Assembly: GCA_011056645.1 (NCBI GenBank)
Contig: DSEL01000152.1
Coordinates: forward strand, 1 to 36,485
Length of the DNA stretch: 36,485 nt
Source: Candidatus Atribacteria bacterium
Lineage (GTDB): Bacteria > Atribacterota > Phoenicimicrobiia > Phoenicimicrobiales > Phoenicimicrobiaceae
Direction: 5' to 3'
A program made the translations under genes and the position numbers. Shown here one piece after another: positions 1,218 to 26,336 of this stretch (its first letter is position 1; every line of letters starts with the position of its first letter). The notes below the pieces were generated by a model, which saw only the letters and a program-made list of their open reading frames with translations, was not told the DNA's origin and ran no database searches.

Positions 1218-2066
1218 TTGGCCAATTGGGAAATCAAAGTAAAGAAGGTGATTTTTATTTATAATATTTGCGTAAAGATTTTATCTAAAGAAGAAGTGGC
1301 TCCAAATATTTTCTTAATCAAATTATTAGCTCCTCTCATTGCTCAAGATGCTATTCCCGGACAATTTGTCCATATAAAATGTAGTAAAGAGAATTATCCT
1401 CTACTGCGCCGTCCTCTAAGTATTCACCGAATAGATAAAGAAAAAGGAGACATTTCTATTCTATTTCAGGTAATAGGAGAGGGTACAAAATTAATTGCTA
1501 ATAAAAGCATTGGAGACGATTTAGATATCATGGGTCCTATAGGTAATGGTTTTAATATTCTTCCGGAAAGTAAAAAAATTATGATAATAGGAGGAGGAAT
1601 AGGAGTAGCCCCTTTACTGACTTTATGCGAAGAGTCTATAAAGCAAGGCAAAGAAACCCGGGTCTTGATAGGTGCCTTAAAGAAAGAGCTAATCATAAGC
1701 GAGGAAAGTTTTAAATTTCTGGGGGCAAAAGTAGAAGTTGCTACTGATGATGGAAGTTATCAATTTAAGGGTTTAGTTACTGATTTATTGGAAAGAGCGG
1801 TTCAAGAAGGATGGTTAGCCGATCAGATATTCGCTTGCGGGCCCAAACCTATGTTAAAAAAAATTTGCGAAATTACCTCAAAGTCAAATATTAATTATCA
1901 GGTATCTATGGAAGAAAAAATGGCTTGTGGGATAGGTGCTTGCTTGGGGTGTGTTTGCAAGGTAAAAACAAAGGATAAAAGTGGAACTCAAGTTAAATAT
2001 GAATACAAACGAGTCTGTATTGATGGACCTGTTTTCGCAGGGAATGAGGTGATCTGGGATGATTGA
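1218..2066 (+). CDS. pyrK: Dihydroorotate dehydrogenase B, electron-transfer subunit PyrK
   Basis: FAD and 2Fe-2S protein that passes electrons from the PyrD FMN to NAD+. It shows the flavin motif RRPLSIHR, the nucleotide-binding loop [17 protein letters not shown] near the C-terminal third, and a final cysteine cluster [11 protein letters not shown]...VC that fits the 2Fe-2S site. The first ordinary start codon in frame is TTG 1218, used here as the outer limit, but it falls inside an AATTGG-type intergenic repeat and adds residues that fit the family poorly. The best ribosome-binding site is AAGGTGA at 1245-1251, which points to an unusual ATT start at 1257 ([16 protein letters not shown]...), about 269 residues. 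GTG 1248 is another option. The stop overlaps the pyrD start by 8 bases, suggesting coupled translation of the two subunits. Confidence 0.93.
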
Positions 2067-2988
2067 TAAGCCTAACTTAGAAGTAGAAGTAGCTGGAATA
2101 AAGTTAAAAAATCCGGTGATGACTGCTTCTGGCACTTTTGGCTATGGTGAAGAATTTTCTCCCTTTATTGATTTAGATAAGCTGGGAGCAATGATATTGA
2201 AGGGAATTACTTTAAAACCAAAGACGGGGAATTTACCTCCCCGGATAATAGAGACCCCTTCGGGGATGCTTAATTCTATCGGTTTGCAGAATGTGGGAGT
2301 CGAAAGGTTAATTAAAGAAAAGTTGCCTTATTTAAAAAAATTCAATACCCCGGTGATCATAAATATTTCCGGCGATACCATAGAAGAATACACCAAATTA
2401 GCCGGAAGGTTGGGAGAAGTTTCCAAGGATATGGGAGTAGCCGGTCTGGAAGTTAACATTTCTTGTCCTAATGTGAAAAAAGGAGGTATGGCCTGGGGAA
2501 CAGATGCTAAAGCAACTTATAAAATAATAAATAGTATTCGAAAAACTACCTCTCTTCCACTTATTGTGAAATTAACCCCTAATGTTTCCGATATCAAAAC
2601 TATTGCACAAGCTGCTGAAGAAGCAGGAGCAGATGCCCTATCCTTAATAAATACTTTAGTGGGAATGGCAATAGATATTGATTCTCGCAAGCCTAAATTG
2701 GCCAATATCAGCGGCGGTTTGTCCGGTCCAGCGATAAAACCGGTAGCCCTTTGGTTGGTCTGGCAGGTATTTCAGGCAGTAAACATACCGGTAATCGGGA
2801 TAGGGGGGATAATAAAAGTTGAGGATGCTCTGGAATTTATTATTGCCGGAGCTCGGGCAATAGAGATTGGAACGGCGAATTTTGTAAATCCCAAAGTAAC
2901 CATTGAAATAATAAGAGGAATAGAAAAATATCTCATAGAAAATAATATTAATGATATCAATGAATTAGTGGGAACTATGAAAATATAA
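2059..2988 (+). CDS. pyrD: Dihydroorotate dehydrogenase class 1B, catalytic subunit
   Basis: FMN enzyme that oxidises dihydroorotate to orotate; with PyrK it forms the NAD-linked class 1B complex. The 309 residues show the N-terminal [15 protein letters not shown], the catalytic [11 protein letters not shown] with the class 1 active-site Cys near residue 136 (class 2 enzymes have Ser here), [10 protein letters not shown], and the FMN phosphate loops GIGGI and [10 protein letters not shown] near the C-terminus. ATG 2059 overlaps the end of pyrK. The adjacent pyrK supports class 1B over the fumarate-linked class 1A. Confidence 0.96.
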
Positions 2989-3007
2989 AAAGATAGGGGG
3001 AGAGAAG

Positions 3008-3733
3008 ATGGATTTAACGGCGAGAGAAAGGTTGGTTCTGGCTCTGGATGTAGACGATTTTAAAACAGCAGAGGAATTGGTGAGTGGATTGAGTGATTAT
3101 GTGGGAGCCTTTAAAATCGGAAACCAACTATTTACTGCTGAGGGACCCAAGATTGTAGACATGGTAAATAAAAAAGGGGGAAAAGTTTTTTTAGATTTAA
3201 AATTTCATGATATACCCAATACCGTGGCTCGGGCAGCAGAAGTAGCTACTAAATTAGGAGTTTCTATTTTTAATGTCCACACCTCCGGGGGATACGAAAT
3301 GATGAGAGCGACGGCTGAAGCCACTGCAAAAATAAGCCAAGAACTGGCTATTAAAAAACCTATCATTTTAGGGGTAACCTTACTTACCAGTATTAATCAG
3401 GAAATTTTGGAAAAAGAGATAGGTATAAAAAAAAGATTGGAAGAACAAGTAATTCATCTGGCTAAATTAGCTAAAGCTTCCGGTCTTGACGGGGTGGTTG
3501 CCTCTTCCTGGGAGATTCAGGGGATAAGAAAAGCTTGCGGAGAGGATTTTGTAATTTTAACTCCCGGGATACGTCCCGGGGGTGATTCTCCCGATGATCA
3601 AAAAAGAATAATGACCCCCGGGGAAGCAATAAAATTAGGAGCTGATTTTTTGGTAGTAGGAAGACCGATAAGAAATGCCGCTAATCCGATAGAAGCAGCG
3701 AAACAAATATTAAAAGAAATGGAGGGAAACTAA
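3008..3733 (+). CDS. pyrF: Orotidine 5'-phosphate decarboxylase
   Basis: Converts OMP to UMP, the last step of de novo synthesis. The catalytic motif DLKFHDIPNT begins near residue 63, with the Asp-Lys-Asp array of this family. The C-terminal phosphate-binding segments LTPGIRPGGDSPDDQKR and FLVVGRPIRNA are present. At 241 residues it is a normal short bacterial PyrF. The start is supported by a purine-rich GGGGGAGAGAAG immediately upstream. It lies 19 bases after pyrD and 3 bases before pyrE, in the same operon. Confidence 0.96.
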   Translation: MDLTARERLVLALDVDDFKTAEELVSGLSDYVGAFKIGNQLFTAEGPKIVDMVNKKGGKVFLDLKFHDIPNTVARAAEVATKLGVSIFNVHTSGGYEMMRATAEATAKISQELAIKKPIILGVTLLTSINQEILEKEIGIKKRLEEQVIHLAKLAKASGLDGVVASSWEIQGIRKACGEDFVILTPGIRPGGDSPDDQKRIMTPGEAIKLGADFLVVGRPIRNAANPIEAAKQILKEMEGN

Positions 3734-3736
3734 AAA

Positions 3737-4321
3737 ATGATTATTAATACAGAAGAAGTCATGAAAAAATTTGAACAAGCAGGAGCTATTCAGAATGGAC
3801 ATTTTAAATTAACCTCAGGAGTTCATAGTGATACCTATATCCAATGTGCTCAGGTTATGCAGCATCCTGAATTTATGCATAATTTATGCAGTGAACTGGG
3901 GAAGAGGTTTAGGGGAGATGATATTGATGTGATCGTCGGACCGGCGATCGGGGGAATAATTATGGCTCATGTAATGGCAAGAGTGTTAGGTCCCTGGGTA
4001 AGGGCAATCTTTACAGAAAGAGAAAATGGAAAGATGACTTTGCGGCGGAGTTTTGAGATAATTGAGGGAGAAAAAGTTTTGGTAGTAGAAGATGTTACTA
4101 CCACCGGAAGTTCAGTAAGAGAGGTTATAGATATAGTAAACTCAAGGCAGGGAAAAGTGGTAGGGATAGGTGTATTAATTGATCGAAGCGGAGGGAAGGT
4201 AGATTTTGGAATAAAGACCGAAAAGCTCCTGACGGTAGACATTAAGACTTATCTTCCCGAGGAATGCCCTTTATGTAAAAAAGGAATTCCCGTAGTTAAA
4301 CCAGGAAGTCGCGGGCTTTAG
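3737..4321 (+). CDS. pyrE: Orotate phosphoribosyltransferase
   Basis: Joins orotate and PRPP to give OMP. The PRPP-binding motif VLVVEDVTTTGSS is near residues 115-127, GHFKLTSGVHSDTYIQ is the usual N-terminal substrate segment, and the C-terminus has CPLCKKGIP, seen in a PyrE subgroup. The length of 194 residues is normal for that subgroup. It is the last gene of the pyr operon; pyrB, pyrC and carAB are not in the window. No strong terminator was seen in the short gap before the arg promoter. Confidence 0.95.
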   Translation: MIINTEEVMKKFEQAGAIQNGHFKLTSGVHSDTYIQCAQVMQHPEFMHNLCSELGKRFRGDDIDVIVGPAIGGIIMAHVMARVLGPWVRAIFTERENGKMTLRRSFEIIEGEKVLVVEDVTTTGSSVREVIDIVNSRQGKVVGIGVLIDRSGGKVDFGIKTEKLLTVDIKTYLPEECPLCKKGIPVVKPGSRGL

Positions 4322-4341: not shown

Positions 4342-4370
4342 TTGACAAGAGTGAAATTTTAATATATTAT
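4342..4370 (+). promoter_or_regulatory. Putative sigma-70 promoter of the arg operon
   Basis: TTGACA at 4342-4347 (perfect consensus) and TATTAT at 4365-4370 have a 17-base spacer. A second possible -10, TATAAT at 4368-4373, would need a 20-base spacer. The start would be near 4377, giving a leader of roughly 390 bases before argC. Confidence 0.7.
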
Positions 4371-4576
4371 AATTTTCAATAATAAAAAAAAGAATAATTT
4401 AATGAGGAAAGTAAGTCATTATTCAAATTAAAAAGAGAAAGATATATTAGGTGAAAGTATCTTGAAGAAGATGACTGAAAAGAGAGCCTCAATTAAGATA
4501 GGTTGGTTACCTTTAAAAACTTCTAATGAGTGGGGTAAATAATTTATCCAATCCCAGGTGGCACCACGAGATTTGG

Positions 4577-4625
4577 TCTCGTCCTTTTATGATAATGAAG
4601 ATTATCAAAGGGGCGGGATTTTTTA
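4577..4625 (+). terminator. First T-box terminator
   Basis: TCTCGTCCTTTT (4577-4588) pairs with AAAGGGGCGGGA (4607-4618), continued by GATAAT/ATTATC around a GAAG loop, then six Ts. The 5' arm follows the first T-box sequence and can switch to an antiterminator pairing. Confidence 0.85.
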
Positions 4626-4683
4626 TTTAATGGTGGAAAAATTATTTACTTAATCCAGGTGGCACCACGGGAAATTTTATTAA

Positions 4684-4737
4684 TCTCGTCCTTTGTGATA
4701 ATCGATAGAATAGTTATCAAAGGGACGGGATTTTTTT
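4684..4737 (+). terminator. Second T-box terminator
   Basis: TCTCGTCCTTT at 4684-4694 pairs with AAAGGGACGGGA at 4719-4730, extended by GATAA/TTATC, followed by seven Ts. It is clearly related to the first terminator but has a different loop, so this looks like an old duplication. Confidence 0.85.
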
Positions 4738-4765
4738 ATTTATATTCAGATAAGGTGAAAATAGA

Positions 4766-5845
4766 ATGAAAAAAATAAAGATAAGCGTCATTGGTTCAAC
4801 AGGTTATACAGGGAAAGAATTAATAAAAATATTAATGAATCATCGAAAGGTAGACTTGGTTCATCTGGTTTCTTCCAGCTATGCAGGAAAAAATATAACC
4901 GAGATATTTCCTGAATTCCTGAATAAATTAAATAAGAAACTGATCAATTTTAATCTAGATATTATATCTCAAGATTCTGATCTGGTATTTACTGCTCTTC
5001 CCCATACGGTCTCTATGGATATGGTTCCGGAATTATTAAAAAAAGGTGTTAAGGTAGTTGATTTAAGTGCGGATTACCGCATAAAGGATTCTGCAGTGTA
5101 TCATGAATGGTACAAGAAAGAACATAATCAGATGAGCAAGGATTTGTTACATGAGGCAGTTTACGGTCTTCCGGAGATTTATTTCAATATGATAAAAAAA
5201 GCTGCCTTGGTGGCAAATCCCGGCTGCTATCCGACCAGTGTAATTTTAGGGATCGCACCTTTATTAAAACATCACTTTGTAGAACCAATCGGAATTATTA
5301 TTGATTCTAAATCCGGTACAAGTGGAGCGGGAAAAAAACTCTCTTTAGATCTACATTTTGCGGAGTGTAACGAAAATTTTAAAGCTTACAAGGTGGCCAG
5401 GCATAATCATATTCCTGAGATCGAGCAGGAGTGTACTTCTATATATTTTAACAAAAATAGCTATAAACAGAAGCAGCAGCAAAAGCAACAAGAAACAGAG
5501 ATAAAAGTATCCTTTACTCCCCATCTTCTTCCGATTAATAGAGGAATTCTATCTACCTGTTATTTAAGTTTAAGGAGTTCTAAAAAAGAAGAGGAAGTAT
5601 TGGAGATCTATCAAAAATATTATTGTAAGGCACCTTTTGTGCGAATTTTTGAACCTCCCAATTTACCGGAAATAAAATATGTAACAGGAACAAATTATTG
5701 TGACATCGGGTTTTCCATAGATGAAAGAACGGGAAAGATAAAAATAATTTCAGTTATCGATAATTTACTTAAAGGAGCCGCCGGTCAGGCAGTGCAGAAT
5801 ATGAATATTATGTCTGGTTTCCCTGAGACCTGTGGGTTGTTATAA
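4766..5845 (+). CDS. argC: N-acetyl-gamma-glutamyl-phosphate reductase
   Basis: NADPH-dependent reduction of N-acetylglutamyl phosphate to the semialdehyde. It has the N-terminal Rossmann motif GSTGYTGKEL, the catalytic ANPGCYPTS with Cys near residue 154, SKSGTSGAGKK, the proton-relay region YKVARHNHIPEIEQE, and the C-terminal DNLLKGAAGQAVQNMN. ATG 4766 follows AAGGTGA at 4753-4759. At 359 residues it is slightly longer than usual because of a glutamine/lysine-rich, low-complexity insert at about residues 232-247 (KQKQQQKQQ) before the SFTPHLLP strand. It is the first gene of the argCJBDGH operon under the T-box. Confidence 0.96.
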   Translation: MKKIKISVIGSTGYTGKELIKILMNHRKVDLVHLVSSSYAGKNITEIFPEFLNKLNKKLINFNLDIISQDSDLVFTALPHTVSMDMVPELLKKGVKVVDLSADYRIKDSAVYHEWYKKEHNQMSKDLLHEAVYGLPEIYFNMIKKAALVANPGCYPTSVILGIAPLLKHHFVEPIGIIIDSKSGTSGAGKKLSLDLHFAECNENFKAYKVARHNHIPEIEQECTSIYFNKNSYKQKQQQKQQETEIKVSFTPHLLPINRGILSTCYLSLRSSKKEEEVLEIYQKYYCKAPFVRIFEPPNLPEIKYVTGTNYCDIGFSIDERTGKIKIISVIDNLLKGAAGQAVQNMNIMSGFPETCGLL

Positions 5846-5868
5846 AATCAAGGTGAAAGGAGTTAATA

Positions 5869-7107
5869 ATGATGAAAGATGTTTTAAATTTAGATAAAGA
5901 AGATTTTCAGGTGGTTAAAGGGGGAATAACTTTTCCTAAAGGCATAAAAGCATCCGGAGTAAAATGCGGGATAAGGTTCAACAAAAAAGATTTAGCCTTA
6001 ATTTATTCGGAAAAAGTCGCTGATGCCTGGGGGACATTCACTACCAATAAATTTAAGGCTGCTCCACTGGTTGTTACCGAGAAAAATTTATCTCTGTCGG
6101 GAGGTAAGTTACAAGCGGTGTTGATTAATAGCGGAATAGCCAATGCCTGTACCGGAAAGAAAGGGTTGAAAGATGCCTGGGAGACGGCCGACTATGTTTC
6201 TCGGGGTTTGAAGATTAAAAAAGAACATGTGGCGGTGACCTCAACCGGCAAGATTGGAGAATTTCTCCCTTTAGATAAGATAAAGGCCGGAGTAACAAAG
6301 GTCATTTCTTGTTTGGATTATGCCGGAGGAACCGAGGCAGCAGAAGCAATATTAACTACTGATACTCAAAAGAAAGAGATAGCCCTCTGTTTTAAATTAG
6401 GTGAGCAGGAAGTGAGAATCGGAGGGATGGCTAAAGGTTCAGGGATGATTCATCCTAATATGGCCACTATGTTGGGTTTTATTACCAGTGACATCTCCAT
6501 TAAAGGAGAATTGCTCCAGGAAGCGCTTAAACAGGTAATAGAAAAATCCTTCAATATGATTAGTGTAGACGGTGATATGAGCACGAATGATATGGTATTG
6601 CTGATGGCCAATGGCTTAGCCGGAAATAAATTGGTCGATAAAAAGGATGTTGATTATTATAAATTTTTAAGTGCTTTACAATATGTTACCCAATATTTAG
6701 CCAAATGCATTGCTAAAGACGGAGAAGGTTCCAGCAAGATGATTGAGGTAGAAGTTCAAAATGCCGTATCTTTTGGGGAGGCCAGGAAAGTTGCTCAGGC
6801 AGTTATTAATTCACCCCTGGTAAAGACAGCCATTTTTGGAAAAGATCCTAATTGGGGGAGAATTTTAGCAGCAGTGGGTTACTCGGGGGCAGAGTTTATA
6901 CCAGATAAGGTTGACCTTTATTTAAAAGAAAAGATAGTTGAGAATGGCCAACCCTTGACATTCTCACGACAAAAGATACACCAATATTTAGAATCTTCTG
7001 ATGAAGTTAAAATTATCATTGACCTTAAAATGGGAAAGGTAAACGCTACTGCCTGGGGATGTGACCTGACCTATGACTATGTGAAGTTAAATACTAAGTA
7101 CAATTAG
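5869..7107 (+). CDS. argJ: Glutamate N-acetyltransferase (ornithine acetyltransferase) ArgJ
   Basis: Transfers the acetyl group from N-acetylornithine to glutamate, making the pathway cyclic; bifunctional members also use acetyl-CoA. The self-cleavage and nucleophile motif KGSGMIHPNMATML is complete, with Thr near residue 200, where the precursor splits into two chains. The C-terminal GKDPNWGRILAAVGYSGA and ATAWGCDLTYDYVKLN are also characteristic. The length of 412 residues is normal. Two ATGs in tandem (5869 and 5872) follow an AAAGGAG site. No argA is seen, in keeping with acetyl recycling. Whether it can also use acetyl-CoA cannot be told from sequence alone. Confidence 0.96.
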   Translation: MMKDVLNLDKEDFQVVKGGITFPKGIKASGVKCGIRFNKKDLALIYSEKVADAWGTFTTNKFKAAPLVVTEKNLSLSGGKLQAVLINSGIANACTGKKGLKDAWETADYVSRGLKIKKEHVAVTSTGKIGEFLPLDKIKAGVTKVISCLDYAGGTEAAEAILTTDTQKKEIALCFKLGEQEVRIGGMAKGSGMIHPNMATMLGFITSDISIKGELLQEALKQVIEKSFNMISVDGDMSTNDMVLLMANGLAGNKLVDKKDVDYYKFLSALQYVTQYLAKCIAKDGEGSSKMIEVEVQNAVSFGEARKVAQAVINSPLVKTAIFGKDPNWGRILAAVGYSGAEFIPDKVDLYLKEKIVENGQPLTFSRQKIHQYLESSDEVKIIIDLKMGKVNATAWGCDLTYDYVKLNTKYN

Positions 7108-7184
7108 CACAAGTGATGAGTGGAGTACAGTTGGCAAATTGGCCAATCGGCCAATTGATCAATTAAAAAGGAGTGGGATGGACA

Positions 7185-8063
7185 ATGAAAAAAAATATAG
7201 ATAATCGTGGGGAAGTCCTTTTAGAGGCCCTTCCTTATATTAAAAAATTCTGGGATAAGATAGTGGTTATAAAATACGGTGGCAGTGCCATGAAGAATAA
7301 AACCTTAGAGAAACAAATTATAAAAGACATTATTCTTCTGAAATATGTGGGGATGAAACCGGTGATTGTTCACGGCGGAGGGCCAGAGATCTCTGAAGAA
7401 ATGGAAAAGAGGAACAAAATTCCTCAATTTCTTGATGGATTAAGAATAACCGATGAAGAAACGATGGAGATAACGGAAATGGTTTTAATCGGTAAGATTA
7501 ATACTCGTTTGGTAGCAGAGATTAATCTCTATGTTTCAGAAGGTCCGGGAAATGGAGTAAAAGGTATCGGCTTGAGCGGGGAAGATGCTCAGCTTTTAAC
7601 GGTTAAAAAACACCCGGTTCCGGAGTTGGGATTGGTAGGAGAAATAGAAAAAATTAATCCCGAAATATTAACAATTTTACTGGAAAAGAATTATATTCCG
7701 GTCATTGCTACGGTAGGAGTAGACAAGGAAGGGATAAGATACAACATCAATGCTGATATAGTAGCAGGCCGGATAGCCATTTCTCTGCAAGCAGGGAAGC
7801 TGATTTATTTGAGTGATGTGGATGGAATATTTAAAGATTTTAAAGACCCAACTTCTTTGATTAGCAGTTTACCCATTAATCAGGCCAAAGAATTAATTAA
7901 ATCCGGGCAGATTCAAAAAGGAATGATTCCCAAAGTAGATTCAGCAATTCAAGCCTTGGAGGGGGGAGTCAATAAAGTGCATTTCTTAAATGGTAAATGT
8001 GATCATTCTGTTCTGTTAGAAGTATTTACCGATAGCGGGATAGGAACAGAAATTATCCCTTAA
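7185..8063 (+). CDS. argB: Acetylglutamate kinase
   Basis: Phosphorylates N-acetylglutamate. The amino-acid-kinase motifs are KYGGSAM near residue 30 and HGGGPEI near residue 63; GLSGEDAQLL, NINADIVAGRIA and KGMIPKVDSAI follow in family order. ATG 7185 is chosen because AAGGAG at 7168-7173 lies 11 bases upstream; an in-frame GTG at 7173 overlaps that site and is unlikely. The C-terminal sequence NKVHFLNGKCDHSVLLEVFTDSGIGTEI fits the arginine-feedback-sensitive type, but sensitivity is inferred. The 77-base gap after argJ contains a cluster of AATTGGCCAAT-like repeats. Confidence 0.96.
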   Translation: MKKNIDNRGEVLLEALPYIKKFWDKIVVIKYGGSAMKNKTLEKQIIKDIILLKYVGMKPVIVHGGGPEISEEMEKRNKIPQFLDGLRITDEETMEITEMVLIGKINTRLVAEINLYVSEGPGNGVKGIGLSGEDAQLLTVKKHPVPELGLVGEIEKINPEILTILLEKNYIPVIATVGVDKEGIRYNINADIVAGRIAISLQAGKLIYLSDVDGIFKDFKDPTSLISSLPINQAKELIKSGQIQKGMIPKVDSAIQALEGGVNKVHFLNGKCDHSVLLEVFTDSGIGTEIIP

Positions 8064-8131
8064 TCAGGATAATCTAAATTTAATTTGTGTAATCACTTAA
8101 TATAAATATTAAGCTAGGGGGGCGAAAGGTT

Positions 8132-9319
8132 GTGAAAACCAAAGAATTGATAAAAAACGAAAAAAAATATTTAATGCAGACTTATAGCAGGCCAGATATG
8201 ATATTAGACAAAGGTGAAGGGATGAAAGTATGGGATCTGGAAGGAAAACAATACTACGATTTTATTGGTGGTATAGCAGTGAATGCCCTGGGATACAGTC
8301 ACCCAAAATTAGTTCAGGCTATGAAGAACCAGGCAGAAAAATTAATTCATTGTTCCAACCTTTATTATAGCGAACCACAGATAATTTTAGCTCAGATGTT
8401 GATAGAGCTTTCTTGTGGGGATAAAGTATTTTTTGCTAATAGTGGAGCAGAGGTAAATGAAGGTGCCATCAAATTAGCCGTAAAATATTTTAAAACCCAA
8501 AATAAAGATAAACATAAAATAATTTATATGAAAAATTCTTTTCACGGTAGAACTATTGCTACCTTGGCTGCTACCGGTCAACACAAATATCAGAAAGATT
8601 ATCTTCCTCTTTTGCCTAAATTTAAGGAGGCGATATTTAATGACCTTGAATCAGTAAAGGCAGCAGTTGATAAAGAAATAGCAGCAGTACTGGTTGAGCC
8701 TATTCAAGGAGAAGGTGGTGTAAAAATTGCCACTCAGGAATTTATAAAGGGGTTAAGAGAATTATGTAATAAAGAAGGAATATTGCTTATTTTTGATGAG
8801 ATTCAGTGCGGTTTGGGTCGAACCGGAAAGATGTTTACCTACGAATATTATAGCGTAGAGCCGGATATTTTAACTATTGCTAAATCTTTGGGAGGGGGGA
8901 TACCCATCGGAGCATTTATTGCCAAAGATAAAATAGCTTCTTCTTTTAAACCCGGTGATCACGGAACTACTTTTGGTGGTAACCCGGTGGCTTGTGCAAT
9001 GGCGATAGCTTTTATAAAAGTTTTAGAAGAGAAGGATTTAATTGGGAAGTGTCAGAAAAAGGGAGAATATTTTAAAGACAAATTAAAGGGTCTCAAAGAA
9101 AAATATCCCGAGAAGATAGAAGAAGTAAGGGGTTTAGGCCTGATGGTGGGGATGGAATTAAAAGAAGAAGGTCAGGAGATAGTAAAAAAATGCGCAGAAG
9201 AAGGAGTATTGATCAATTGTGCTGCTAAAAAAGTTTTACGTTTTTTACCGCCCTTAATTGTGAAAGAAAAAGAGATAGATTATTTAATAGAAATTTTAGA
9301 TAAAGTACTTCAAAGGTAA
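8132..9319 (+). CDS. argD: Acetylornithine aminotransferase
   Basis: PLP enzyme of class III that makes N-acetylornithine from the semialdehyde with glutamate. It shows NSGAEVNEGAIKLA, SFHGRT, the cofactor-contact FDEIQCGLGRTG, and the PLP lysine in TIAKSLGGGIPIGA near residue 251, then HGTTFGGNPVACA. The length of 395 residues is normal. The start is GTG 8132 behind a GGGGGGCGAAAGG stretch. The last codons and stop lie in the left arm of a long perfect palindrome that continues into the intergenic gap. Some relatives also act on succinyl-diaminopimelate, but the DapL route here makes that role unnecessary. Confidence 0.95.
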   Translation: MKTKELIKNEKKYLMQTYSRPDMILDKGEGMKVWDLEGKQYYDFIGGIAVNALGYSHPKLVQAMKNQAEKLIHCSNLYYSEPQIILAQMLIELSCGDKVFFANSGAEVNEGAIKLAVKYFKTQNKDKHKIIYMKNSFHGRTIATLAATGQHKYQKDYLPLLPKFKEAIFNDLESVKAAVDKEIAAVLVEPIQGEGGVKIATQEFIKGLRELCNKEGILLIFDEIQCGLGRTGKMFTYEYYSVEPDILTIAKSLGGGIPIGAFIAKDKIASSFKPGDHGTTFGGNPVACAMAIAFIKVLEEKDLIGKCQKKGEYFKDKLKGLKEKYPEKIEEVRGLGLMVGMELKEEGQEIVKKCAEEGVLINCAAKKVLRFLPPLIVKEKEIDYLIEILDKVLQR

Positions 9320-9353
9320 ACTTTCGTGCCAGGCACGAAAGTTTACCTTTTTT
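9312..9353 (+). terminator. Long palindrome at the argD 3' end, terminator-like
   Basis: A perfect 19-bp inverted repeat (9312-9330 with 9332-9350) is centred on A 9331, with the core CGTGCCAGGCACG. It ends in a run of Ts to 9352. The left arm contains the argD stop. It would form a very strong hairpin, but argG and argH follow on the same strand, so it may reduce readthrough, protect RNA 3' ends, or be a repeat element. Confidence 0.7.
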
Positions 9354-9389
9354 ATAAAAATATAATAAAATAAGAAGGAGTATGAGAAA

Positions 9390-10604
9390 ATGAAAAAAAT
9401 GAAAAAAGTAGTTTTAGCTTATTCAGGAGGATTGGATACTTCTGTAGCCATTAAATGGCTAAAAGAGAATTATTGCGAGGAAGTCATTGCGGTGGCAGTT
9501 GACGTAGGACAAAATAGTGATTTAGAATATGTAAAAGAAAAAGCACTTAAAGTCGGAGCGAGTAAATCTTATGTCATTGATGCTAAAGAAGAATTTGCTA
9601 AGGAATATGTTCTGTTAGGGTTACAAGCAGGTGCTATTTATGAGTCTAATTACCCTTTGGCTACAGCTTATTCTCGACCATTAATATCTAAAATTATGGT
9701 TGAGATTGCTGAAAAGGAACAAGCGGAAGCGATTGTCCATGGCTGTACCGGTAAAGGTAATGACCAGGTGAGATTTGAGGTTTCTATCGCGGCCTTAAAT
9801 CCAAATTTGAAGGTTATTGCTCCAGCAAGAGAATGGGGATTTACCCGGGAAGAAGAAATTGAATATGCCAAAAAATTTAATATTCCTGTTCCTGTTGATG
9901 TAGAAAATCCCTACAGTGTGGATCAGAATCTATGGGGAAGGTCTATAGAATGTGGTGTATTAGAAGATCCTTGGATAGAGCCACCGAAAAAAGGAGTTTA
10001 CGAATGGACGGTAAGTCCGGAGAAGGCTCCTGACCAACCAACTTATCTGGAGATTTATTTTGAAAAGGGAGTGCCGCAGAGTATAAATGGAGAGAAGATG
10101 TCTCTGACGAATTTAATTTTATATTTGAATAAAATCGGAGGAGAGAATGGAGTGGGGCGAGTGGATATGGTAGAAAATAGATTGGTAGGGATTAAATCTC
10201 GAGAAATATATGAATGTCCTGGTGCTGCTATTCTGTTAATGGCTTATCAATCTTTGGAAGGGCTGGTTTATCCTCGAGAATTGTCTCATTTCAAACAGAT
10301 TATTTCTCAAAAATATTCTGAATTAACTTATTATGGTCTATGGTTTTCTGCCTTAAAAGAGGCTTTGGATGGTTTTATCGGGGTCATTAAAGATAAAGTA
10401 ACCGGGATTATAAAAGTTAGATTATTTAAAGCTAATTGTGTAGTCGTTGGGCGAAAATCTAAAAATTCTCTCTATGATTTTAATTTGGCTACTTATGACC
10501 AGGGAGATACCTTTAATCAGGATTTTGCCAAAGGATTTATAGAACTTTGGGGTTTGCCCACGAAAGTATATTCTTCGGTGAGCAGGAAAGACAGTGATAA
10601 GTAA
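9390..10604 (+). CDS. argG: Argininosuccinate synthase
   Basis: ATP-dependent joining of citrulline and aspartate. The N-terminal PP-loop [11 protein letters not shown] is at residues 10-20; [31 protein letters not shown] and NGEKMSL follow, all standard. The length of 404 residues is normal. ATG 9390 follows an AAGAAGGAG site; ATG 9399 is an in-frame alternative. It sits in the arg operon after the palindrome that ends argD. The citrulline supplier argF is not in the window. Confidence 0.97.
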
Positions 10605-10711
10605 CAAGTAATGAGTAATGAGCTTGAGGTTGCAGGTTTCGAGTTATAGGTTTTTTGTTTGTCATTATTTCCTCCCCCCTTGGAGGGAGGATTAAGGTAG
10701 AGGTGAAGATA

Positions 10712-12091
10712 ATGGAAAAGTTATGGGGAGGAAGGTTTACTAAGAAAATAAATAAGGAGATGGAGGAATTTGTTTCCTCCCTCTCCTTTGATAAAAAATT
10801 AGCAAAATACGATCTCTTGGGAAGCATTGTCCATGCTCAAATGTTAGGGAAATGTAATATTATTACAAATGAGGAAAGCAATAAAATTGTTGAGGGGTTA
10901 AAACAAATCCTCAAAGAAGTACAGGAAAGTAAGATAAAAATTGACATAAGCGAAGCAGAAGATATTCATTCCTGGGTAGAGAATAAGTTAAAGGAAAAGA
11001 TAGGGATTCTTGCCGGGAAATTACATATTGCCCGAAGCAGAAATGATCAGATATCCCTTGATGAAAGGATGTATCTAAAAGAAGAAGTTGAAATCATTCA
11101 GGATTTGTTGAAAGATTTGCAGAAATCACTTTTATCTTCTGCTCAGAAAAATTTAGGAATAATGATGTCCGGATATACCCATCTTCAACATGCTCAACCC
11201 ATTCTTTTTTCTCATCATCTTCTTGCTTATTTTTATATGTTGGAAAGGGATAAGGGAAGGATGCAAAATTTATATAAGAGAATTGATATTTTACCCTTAG
11301 GTTCTGCTGCATTGGCGGGTACTTCTTTCCCTATCGATAGAGAATTTACAGCTTCACAACTTGGTTTTAGTGGAATATCAGAGAATAGTCTTGATGCAGT
11401 AAGCGATAGAGATTTTATTTTAGAATTTTTATCAGCTTCAACTATATCAATGATGCATTTGAGTCGTTTAAGTGAAGAGATCATCCTTTGGTCCTCGAAA
11501 GAATTTGATTTTATCGAATTAGATGATTCTTTCTGTACCGGAAGCAGTATTATGCCGCAAAAGAAAAATCCTGATGCGGCGGAATTAATTAGAGGGAAAA
11601 CCGGGAGAATTTACGGCAATTTGGTAAATATTTTAACTATGATGAAAGCCTTACCCTTGACCTACAATCATGATATGCAAGAAGACAAAGAACCTCTGTT
11701 TGATACCGTATTTACTTTAAAAACTTCTTTACTCTTAATGAGTAAGATGATAGAGACTATGCAGATTAATAAAGAAAAGATGGAAACAAGCACCAAGGGT
11801 GATTTTTCTACTGCCACCGAATTGGCGGATTACTTAGTAAAAAAGGGCTTATCTTTTAGAGAAGCTCATAAATTAGTCGGGAGTATAGTTATTTATTGTT
11901 TAGAAAATAAAAAGATATTGGAAGATTTAACTCTTCCCGAATTGCAATCATTCCATAAAAGTTTTGATAAAAATACTATAGAAATCTTAACACCGCAGTC
12001 AGCTATTGATGTTAAAGATTCTTACGGAGGGACTTCTTTAAAAAGAGTAAGAGAGTCTATTCAAAAGGCTAAAAGGACATTGGAAGAATAA
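10712..12091 (+). CDS. argH: Argininosuccinate lyase
   Basis: Splits argininosuccinate into arginine and fumarate. The superfamily signature GSSIMPQKKNPDAAEL is at about residues 277-292. HIARSRNDQ, GYTHLQHAQPI and SSLSFDKKLAKYD also fit. It is 459 residues from ATG 10712, which has GAGGTGA just upstream and gives the family N-terminus MEKLWGGRF. A longer frame back to 10655 has no such support. It is the last gene of the arg operon. Confidence 0.97.
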   Translation: MEKLWGGRFTKKINKEMEEFVSSLSFDKKLAKYDLLGSIVHAQMLGKCNIITNEESNKIVEGLKQILKEVQESKIKIDISEAEDIHSWVENKLKEKIGILAGKLHIARSRNDQISLDERMYLKEEVEIIQDLLKDLQKSLLSSAQKNLGIMMSGYTHLQHAQPILFSHHLLAYFYMLERDKGRMQNLYKRIDILPLGSAALAGTSFPIDREFTASQLGFSGISENSLDAVSDRDFILEFLSASTISMMHLSRLSEEIILWSSKEFDFIELDDSFCTGSSIMPQKKNPDAAELIRGKTGRIYGNLVNILTMMKALPLTYNHDMQEDKEPLFDTVFTLKTSLLLMSKMIETMQINKEKMETSTKGDFSTATELADYLVKKGLSFREAHKLVGSIVIYCLENKKILEDLTLPELQSFHKSFDKNTIEILTPQSAIDVKDSYGGTSLKRVRESIQKAKRTLEE

Positions 12092-26069: not shown

Positions 26070-26112
26070 GAAATTAATCCAACAATTAAATCATTCCCCT
26101 TTTTCTCATCAG

Positions 26113-26297
26113 ATGAGATAGCGCTCCATCAGAAACCAGGGCATAGATTCTGATGACAGTCTTATGGCTTTTAACCATAAACCCAACATAAAGATTAGAG
26201 CTATTATCTTTATGTTTCGGCGAGAATACCTTTCCTGGCGAGTCCAAGATGCTCATCTCATCACCAGTACTGATTAATACCCGCACCTCTACCTCAC
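26113..26297 (-). ncRNA. Lysine riboswitch (L box) aptamer
   Basis: Read on the minus strand, the sequence opens with GTGAGGTAGAGGTGCGG, carries AGGAAAGGTATTCTCGCCGAA and later AAGACTGTCATCAGAA and CTATCTCAT. These match the conserved blocks of the L box (AGAGGTGCG, AAGG..., CGCCGAA, GCTGTCA, CTATCTC). The P1 helix is GTGAGGTAG (26289-26297) with CTATCTCAT (26113-26121), 9 pairs including wobbles. A promoter lies just upstream and a terminator just downstream, and lysA is the next gene. Lysine binding would favour termination. A 66-codon frame running through it (26086-26286) is a consequence of the RNA and not a gene. Confidence 0.92.
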
Positions 26298-26336
26298 TTA
26301 GTAAAGAAGTGAGGTAATAAATATTAAATTTCTAAT

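Follow-up and report, generated by a model that had tools for sequence, protein, structure and literature searches.

We found that the leader of the argCJBDGH operon in an Atribacterota genome is a partially tandem T-box, with one stem I and more than one antiterminator/terminator. It occupies positions 4404-4737 of the window, by which we mean the whole stretch of DNA analysed (36,485 nucleotides). The leader is not a fully tandem T-box, since it has no second stem I. The sequence immediately before the second T-box core is the reverse complement of the first module's stem III, and a long-range stem III pairing between the two modules is well supported by the comparison of related leaders. 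We consider it probable that the leader combines one tRNA-Arg(UCU)-sensing arm with two successive discriminators that share parts.

The window corresponds to contig C152 of an assembly of 231 contigs totalling 2.25 Mb, and its ArgC is 82% identical to that of Atribacterota CSMAG_808. The genes pyrD, pyrF and pyrE (2059-4321) immediately precede the arg leader in the same orientation, which makes this a pyrimidine-arginine neighbourhood. A lysine riboswitch aptamer (121 bits) is found elsewhere in the window, at 26111-26299 on the minus strand. The features of the arg locus, in window coordinates, are as follows.

4342-4370, plus strand: sigma-70-like promoter TTGACA-17-TATTAT, 11/12 consensus matches; sites of such quality are no commoner than in shuffles
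4404-4490, plus strand: stem I, the sole one, with S-turn (AGUA/GAA), from the Rfam T-box alignment, model positions 1 onward
4481-4483, plus strand: specifier codon AGA (Arg), after GAAA, read by eye
4501-4525, plus strand: approximate stem IIA/B pseudoknot region, from the Rfam T-box alignment, pseudoknot limits by eye
4528-4532, plus strand: GAGUG, the RRRxG purine string 5' of stem III, from the sequence, invariant in alignment A1
4533-4549, plus strand: stem III of module 1, GGGUAAA-UAA-UUUAUCC, local hairpin 100% paired in 15 distinct sequences
4550-4551, plus strand: AA 3' of module 1 stem III, invariant in the alignment
4556-4585, plus strand: antiterminator 1, with helix A1 AGG/CCU, T-box bulge UGGCACC and helix A2, -7.4 kcal/mol
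4577-4624, plus strand: terminator 1 with T run, -21.9 kcal/mol
4635-4651, plus strand: module 2 strand complementary to stem III (4533-4549), 16 pairs and one A.A mismatch, the putative 3' strand of a composite stem III
4652-4653, plus strand: AA 3' of the composite stem III, invariant in the alignment
4657-4692, plus strand: antiterminator 2, with A1 AGG/CCU, bulge UGGCACC and A2, -4.7 kcal/mol
4684-4737, plus strand: terminator 2 with T run, -21.5 kcal/mol
4766-5845, plus strand: argC, first gene of the operon (NCBIfam TIGR01850, 426 bits)
4766-12091, plus strand: argC-J-B-D-G-H operon, the genes after argC matching argJ, argB, argD, argG and argH

TTGACA and TAT-A-T boxes can also be seen at the corresponding place in the leaders of relatives. 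The 13-nucleotide T-box core AGGTGGCACCACG occurs as exact copies at 4556-4568 and 4657-4669, which are the only matches without a mismatch in the window, and each is followed by its own terminator, as an earlier note on this DNA had described. That note had also proposed that both modules share one stem I. The Rfam T-box model (RF00230) bears this out: it gives a single full-length match at 4393-4589, with a score of 79.3 bits (E 1.3e-17 for the stretch) that falls below the gathering score of 93, and a partial match at 4619-4693. The partial match is confined to model positions 150-216, so the second copy lacks a stem I, and none is present between the modules in the window. The arg leaders of relatives score 68.6-91.0 bits against the same model (gathering score 93), and at least one T-box above the gathering score can be found in 18 of 24 genomes of the order. 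The whole leader folds far better than its shuffles (z -4.8), and it has the features of RF00230: stem I, S-turn, an Arg specifier before an arg operon, a UGGN bulge and the RRRxG-stem III-AA motif. In both modules the antiterminator and terminator are mutually exclusive. The tRNA-Arg(UCU) of the window's genome ends in G-CCA, and its GCCA pairs with the UGGC of both modules.

Our comparison set comprised 24 genomes of the order, in most of which a stem III pattern detects the arg leader. Two-module leaders could be read in 17 cases from both families of the order, in agreement with the earlier note's view of a partly duplicated T-box that would make two successive termination decisions, and this arrangement is kept in close as well as more distant relatives. 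The gene that follows is argC, or carA in G018 and (by eye) in G012, G020 and G021. The specifier, read by eye, is AGA in nearly all two-module leaders of both families. Insertions of unrelated sequence after terminator 1 and ahead of module 2 (L019, L021, L023, L124) make the core-to-core distance vary, from 100 to 474 nt, yet the module 2 strand always lies directly before core 2 (17/17). No second stem I is present in any of the relatives' spacers that we looked at. Neither of the two findings that the earlier note would have taken as refuting its view, a second stem I between the modules or loss of the module 2 antiterminator pairing in close relatives, was made. Weak full-length fits of the T-box model in the spacers of L124, L021 and L026 were rejected, as they showed no usable specifier stem; in L124, the sole spacer alignment inspected, an inserted inverted-repeat stretch fills the fit and there is no usable specifier loop. 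Patterns for two close cores, searched phylum-wide, returned only arg leaders and one trpB-like leader, all within the order, and the two-core case was found in 0 of 79 argC leader loci of other phyla.

The second stage is dispensable in some lineages: G008 (L017, a contig shared with L044) retains a single module, its module 2 having been lost, and the G012 leader (L125) is decaying, with specifier AUA (the only such case), a broken helix A1 in module 2 and a retained terminator 2. Several further observations were made among the relatives. The bulge of module 1 reads UGGU in L015, L016, L131, L021, L125 and L017, and module 2 of these loci, where present, has UGGC. In G001, module 1 would use a G-U pair, because its bulge is UGGU and its tRNA-Arg(UCU), identical to that of the window's genome, has discriminator base G. 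G009 has two arg leaders (L124 and L021), one of each family type, owing either to transfer or to a contaminated genome bin (listed contamination 5). A second copy of arg T-box module 1, without module 2, runs into other coding-like sequence in L145 (G020:C61:46407-46632) and looks like an insertion or a fragment copy.

What the earlier note had missed is the stem III strand of module 2, which is predicted to pair with stem III of module 1. All 17 two-module leaders carry, immediately ahead of core 2, a reverse complement of module 1 stem III. In the window, the duplex between 4635-4651 and 4533-4549 has an energy of -14.4 kcal/mol (RNAduplex), which was matched in none of 500 shuffles; across the 17 leaders the composite duplex ranges from -10.2 to -18.8 kcal/mol, compared with 0 to -5.0 kcal/mol for hairpins within module 2, and shuffled module 2 segments reach the native energy in 0-6 of 500 trials per leader. 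When the strands are paired across the two families instead, about 6 to 9 kcal/mol are lost, the swapped duplexes averaging -8.3 to -8.7 kcal/mol against native values of -14.4 and -17.7. We scored the helix as 12 pairs in an alignment of 15 distinct sequences, where it is 96.7% paired; sliding the partner by 1-3 columns lowers whole-structure pairing to 24-58%. Three pairs have changed on both sides (G-C/A-U, A-U/G-C and A-U/U-A, in 6-7 sequences each), with G-U intermediates of these double changes in G009a and G021. Read by eye, all three family-wide stem III substitutions between families f1 and f2 are compensated in module 2, and these compensating changes are the sole family-wide differences among its 12 pairing positions. 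RNAalifold picks the composite helix unprompted. Partition functions computed from stem III onward, for a transcript ending just before core 2, assign it a probability of 0.97 in the window and of 0.85-0.99 in 16 of the 17 leaders overall, the exception being the decaying leader of G012 at 0.53. In a single case, the one-module leader of G008, stem III is changed at loop column 16, which is invariant in two-module leaders; such a change is as expected if distant pairing holds the stem III loop wherever module 2 is present.

The complementarity could instead follow merely from the palindromic character of stem III, with module 2 being an ordinary duplicated discriminator with a degenerate stem III hairpin of its own. 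A palindromic stem copied in direct orientation could likewise pair at a distance, some module 2 segments fold locally (up to -5.0 kcal/mol), and G021 fits a local hairpin about equally well. We nevertheless regard this explanation as unlikely. Local stem III hairpins in module 2, tried in two registers that differ between the families, were rejected because they are 59-67% paired, equal to shuffles. The former loop positions (columns 15/39) are complementary and covarying, by alignment score module 2 is closer to the reverse complement of stem III than to a copy in direct orientation (17/17), and in f2 its 5' side carries no purine string.

Other observations weigh against the composite helix itself. 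As all three double changes fall on the f1/f2 split, they represent few independent events, and the count of pairs changed on both sides is not unusual (178/500 in control (a)). The window's helix contains two G-U pairs at its closing base besides the A.A mismatch, that of G021 has a G.G mismatch, and those of G005 and G006 have an internal loop. In the window, unconstrained folds of the whole leader do not favour the composite helix (probability 0.00-0.03), and in several species the partition functions favour other pairings as soon as antiterminator 2 has been transcribed.

The proposed function of the long-range pairing rests on a known part of the T-box. Structural work summarised in a review shows that the discriminator, which senses tRNA charge, cannot do without the element 5'-RRRxG-stem III-AA-3' (PMC7583486). 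Module 1 reads GAGUG-[GGGUAAAUAAUUUAUCC]-AA, so that the motif is local there. Module 2 has the AA and the core, lacks a purine string of its own in f2, and has the complete motif via the composite helix only. Because the distant helix would run from the base after GAGUG to the base before the AA of module 2, the motif would be rebuilt in the same register, and the composite arrangement puts antiterminator 2 in the place of antiterminator 1.

In the mechanism that we propose, the anticodon of uncharged tRNA-Arg would dock on stem I and its GCCA end would pair with the UGGC of antiterminator 1, local stem III and GAGUG would lock the complex, and RNA polymerase would pass terminator 1. Once transcribed, the module 2 strand would pair with the entire stem III (12-16 bp), displacing the local hairpin and looping out antiterminator/terminator 1. 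The composite stem III would then be flanked 5' by GAGUG and 3' by AA, with antiterminator 2 directly after it, and to this antiterminator the tRNA-Arg(UCU) still held by stem I would be presented again for a second test with one tRNA. Terminator 2 would stop transcription if this tRNA were charged, or if polymerase had passed by leakage. Transcription would set the order of these events, since only the local hairpin can form before the module 2 strand exists. Leakage is predicted to be multiplied down across two terminators at the cost of one tRNA capture. The anatomy, its conservation, the complementarity, the covariation and the common flanking motif are seen in the compared sequences; the strand exchange during transcription, the hand-over of the tRNA and a tighter OFF state with its effect on expression we infer. 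We lean slightly towards a single-ligand double check, akin to proofreading, in which two discriminators alternate on one purine string and one stem III strand through programmed strand exchange. The modules would thus be coupled and successive rather than making two independent contacts, since the module 2 strand pairs with stem III of module 1. Two simultaneous contacts with the tRNA acceptor end, which the earlier note had entertained, are unlikely because each discriminator would have to use the one purine string and the one 5' strand of stem III.

It is also conceivable, though improbable, that the long helix is real and that it dismantles discriminator 1 and releases the tRNA after the first decision, and that terminator 2 is mainly a second, tRNA-independent stop. 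In favour of this, the composite helix and the local stem III are mutually exclusive, and G012 retains terminator 2 with helix A1 of its module 2 broken. However, every two-module leader conserves the UGGCACC bulge and antiterminator 2, the A1 helix of decaying G012 being the sole exception, and the UGGC of module 2 fits the discriminator base of the tRNA also where module 1 reads UGGU, as in G001 with its identical tRNA. A selectively neutral leftover of a recent tandem duplication is a very unlikely account of module 2: the module is absent in G008 and decayed in G012, yet in both families it has an intact antiterminator, a terminator and a compensated helix, although the spacer has diverged strongly and changed in size.

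The arg leader resembles a canonical transcriptional T-box (RF00230; PMC7583486) in having stem I with specifier and S-turn, the stem II region, RRRxG-stem III-AA, the bulge and an antiterminator/terminator switch, and differs from it in having two discriminators and terminators, with stem III in local and composite forms. Fully tandem, or double, T-boxes have two successive terminators, for which a sharper response is expected (PMC9413887, PMC12452182). The arg leader shares the two terminators; fully tandem T-boxes, however, have two complete sensors and two tRNAs, whereas the arg leader has one sensor and would test one tRNA twice. Full tandems are thus known, as the earlier note had said, and the partial tandems that it called less common have already been named in the literature as "partially tandem" T-boxes, whose mode of action is stated as unknown (PMC7583486). 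Like these, the arg leader has one stem I serving more than one antiterminator/terminator; unlike them as described, its covarying helix joins module 2 to stem III of module 1.

Two other T-boxes of the order bear on this comparison. The window's genome carries a trpB-like partial tandem T-box before a TrpB-like gene (L004/L217, G000:C226:5169-5597), which is also found in G002, G009, G012, G017 and G022 and is kept in 6 of 13 trpB-like loci. It shares with the arg leader the combination of one stem I with two cores, and does so in several genomes of the order. We examined it for another composite helix and rejected that reading: its module 2 is self-contained, with its own purine string and a strong stem III (-9.7 to -17.4 kcal/mol). 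Composite helices are therefore not a requirement of partial tandems. In the leuS T-box leader of this clade, a complete tRNA-Ala(GGC) gene lies between the stem III strands GUAGA and UCUAC.

3302-3622 of L251 (G000:C85), minus strand: leuS T-box leader, tRNA at 3363-3438; also L242-L250

Ten genomes, drawn from both families of the order, share this arrangement, and the own-genome loci scanned contain no tRNA-Ala(GGC) other than the one in the leader. This clade therefore tolerates a wide separation of the stem III strands. Transcripts of the leuS leader may also serve as tRNA precursors; alternatively, the tRNA may belong to the switch itself. In the literature searched we found no report of a tRNA gene within a T-box stem III and no T-box paper on Atribacterota, and no composite-helix element is shown in the portion of a tandem-riboswitch survey available to us (PMC9481103). 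We describe the composite helix as new here; the literature compared did not include the primary 2008 (Vitreschak et al.) and 2009 T-box surveys, so an earlier report is possible.

Here we described, in Atribacterota, a covariation-supported structure that suggests how a second T-box module without a stem I could still test a tRNA. It is a possible answer to how partially tandem T-boxes act, which the review leaves as an open question (PMC7583486). If true, it would mean that regulatory stringency can be multiplied by RNA alone, with no second ligand-binding event, a principle that could also be of use in RNA engineering.
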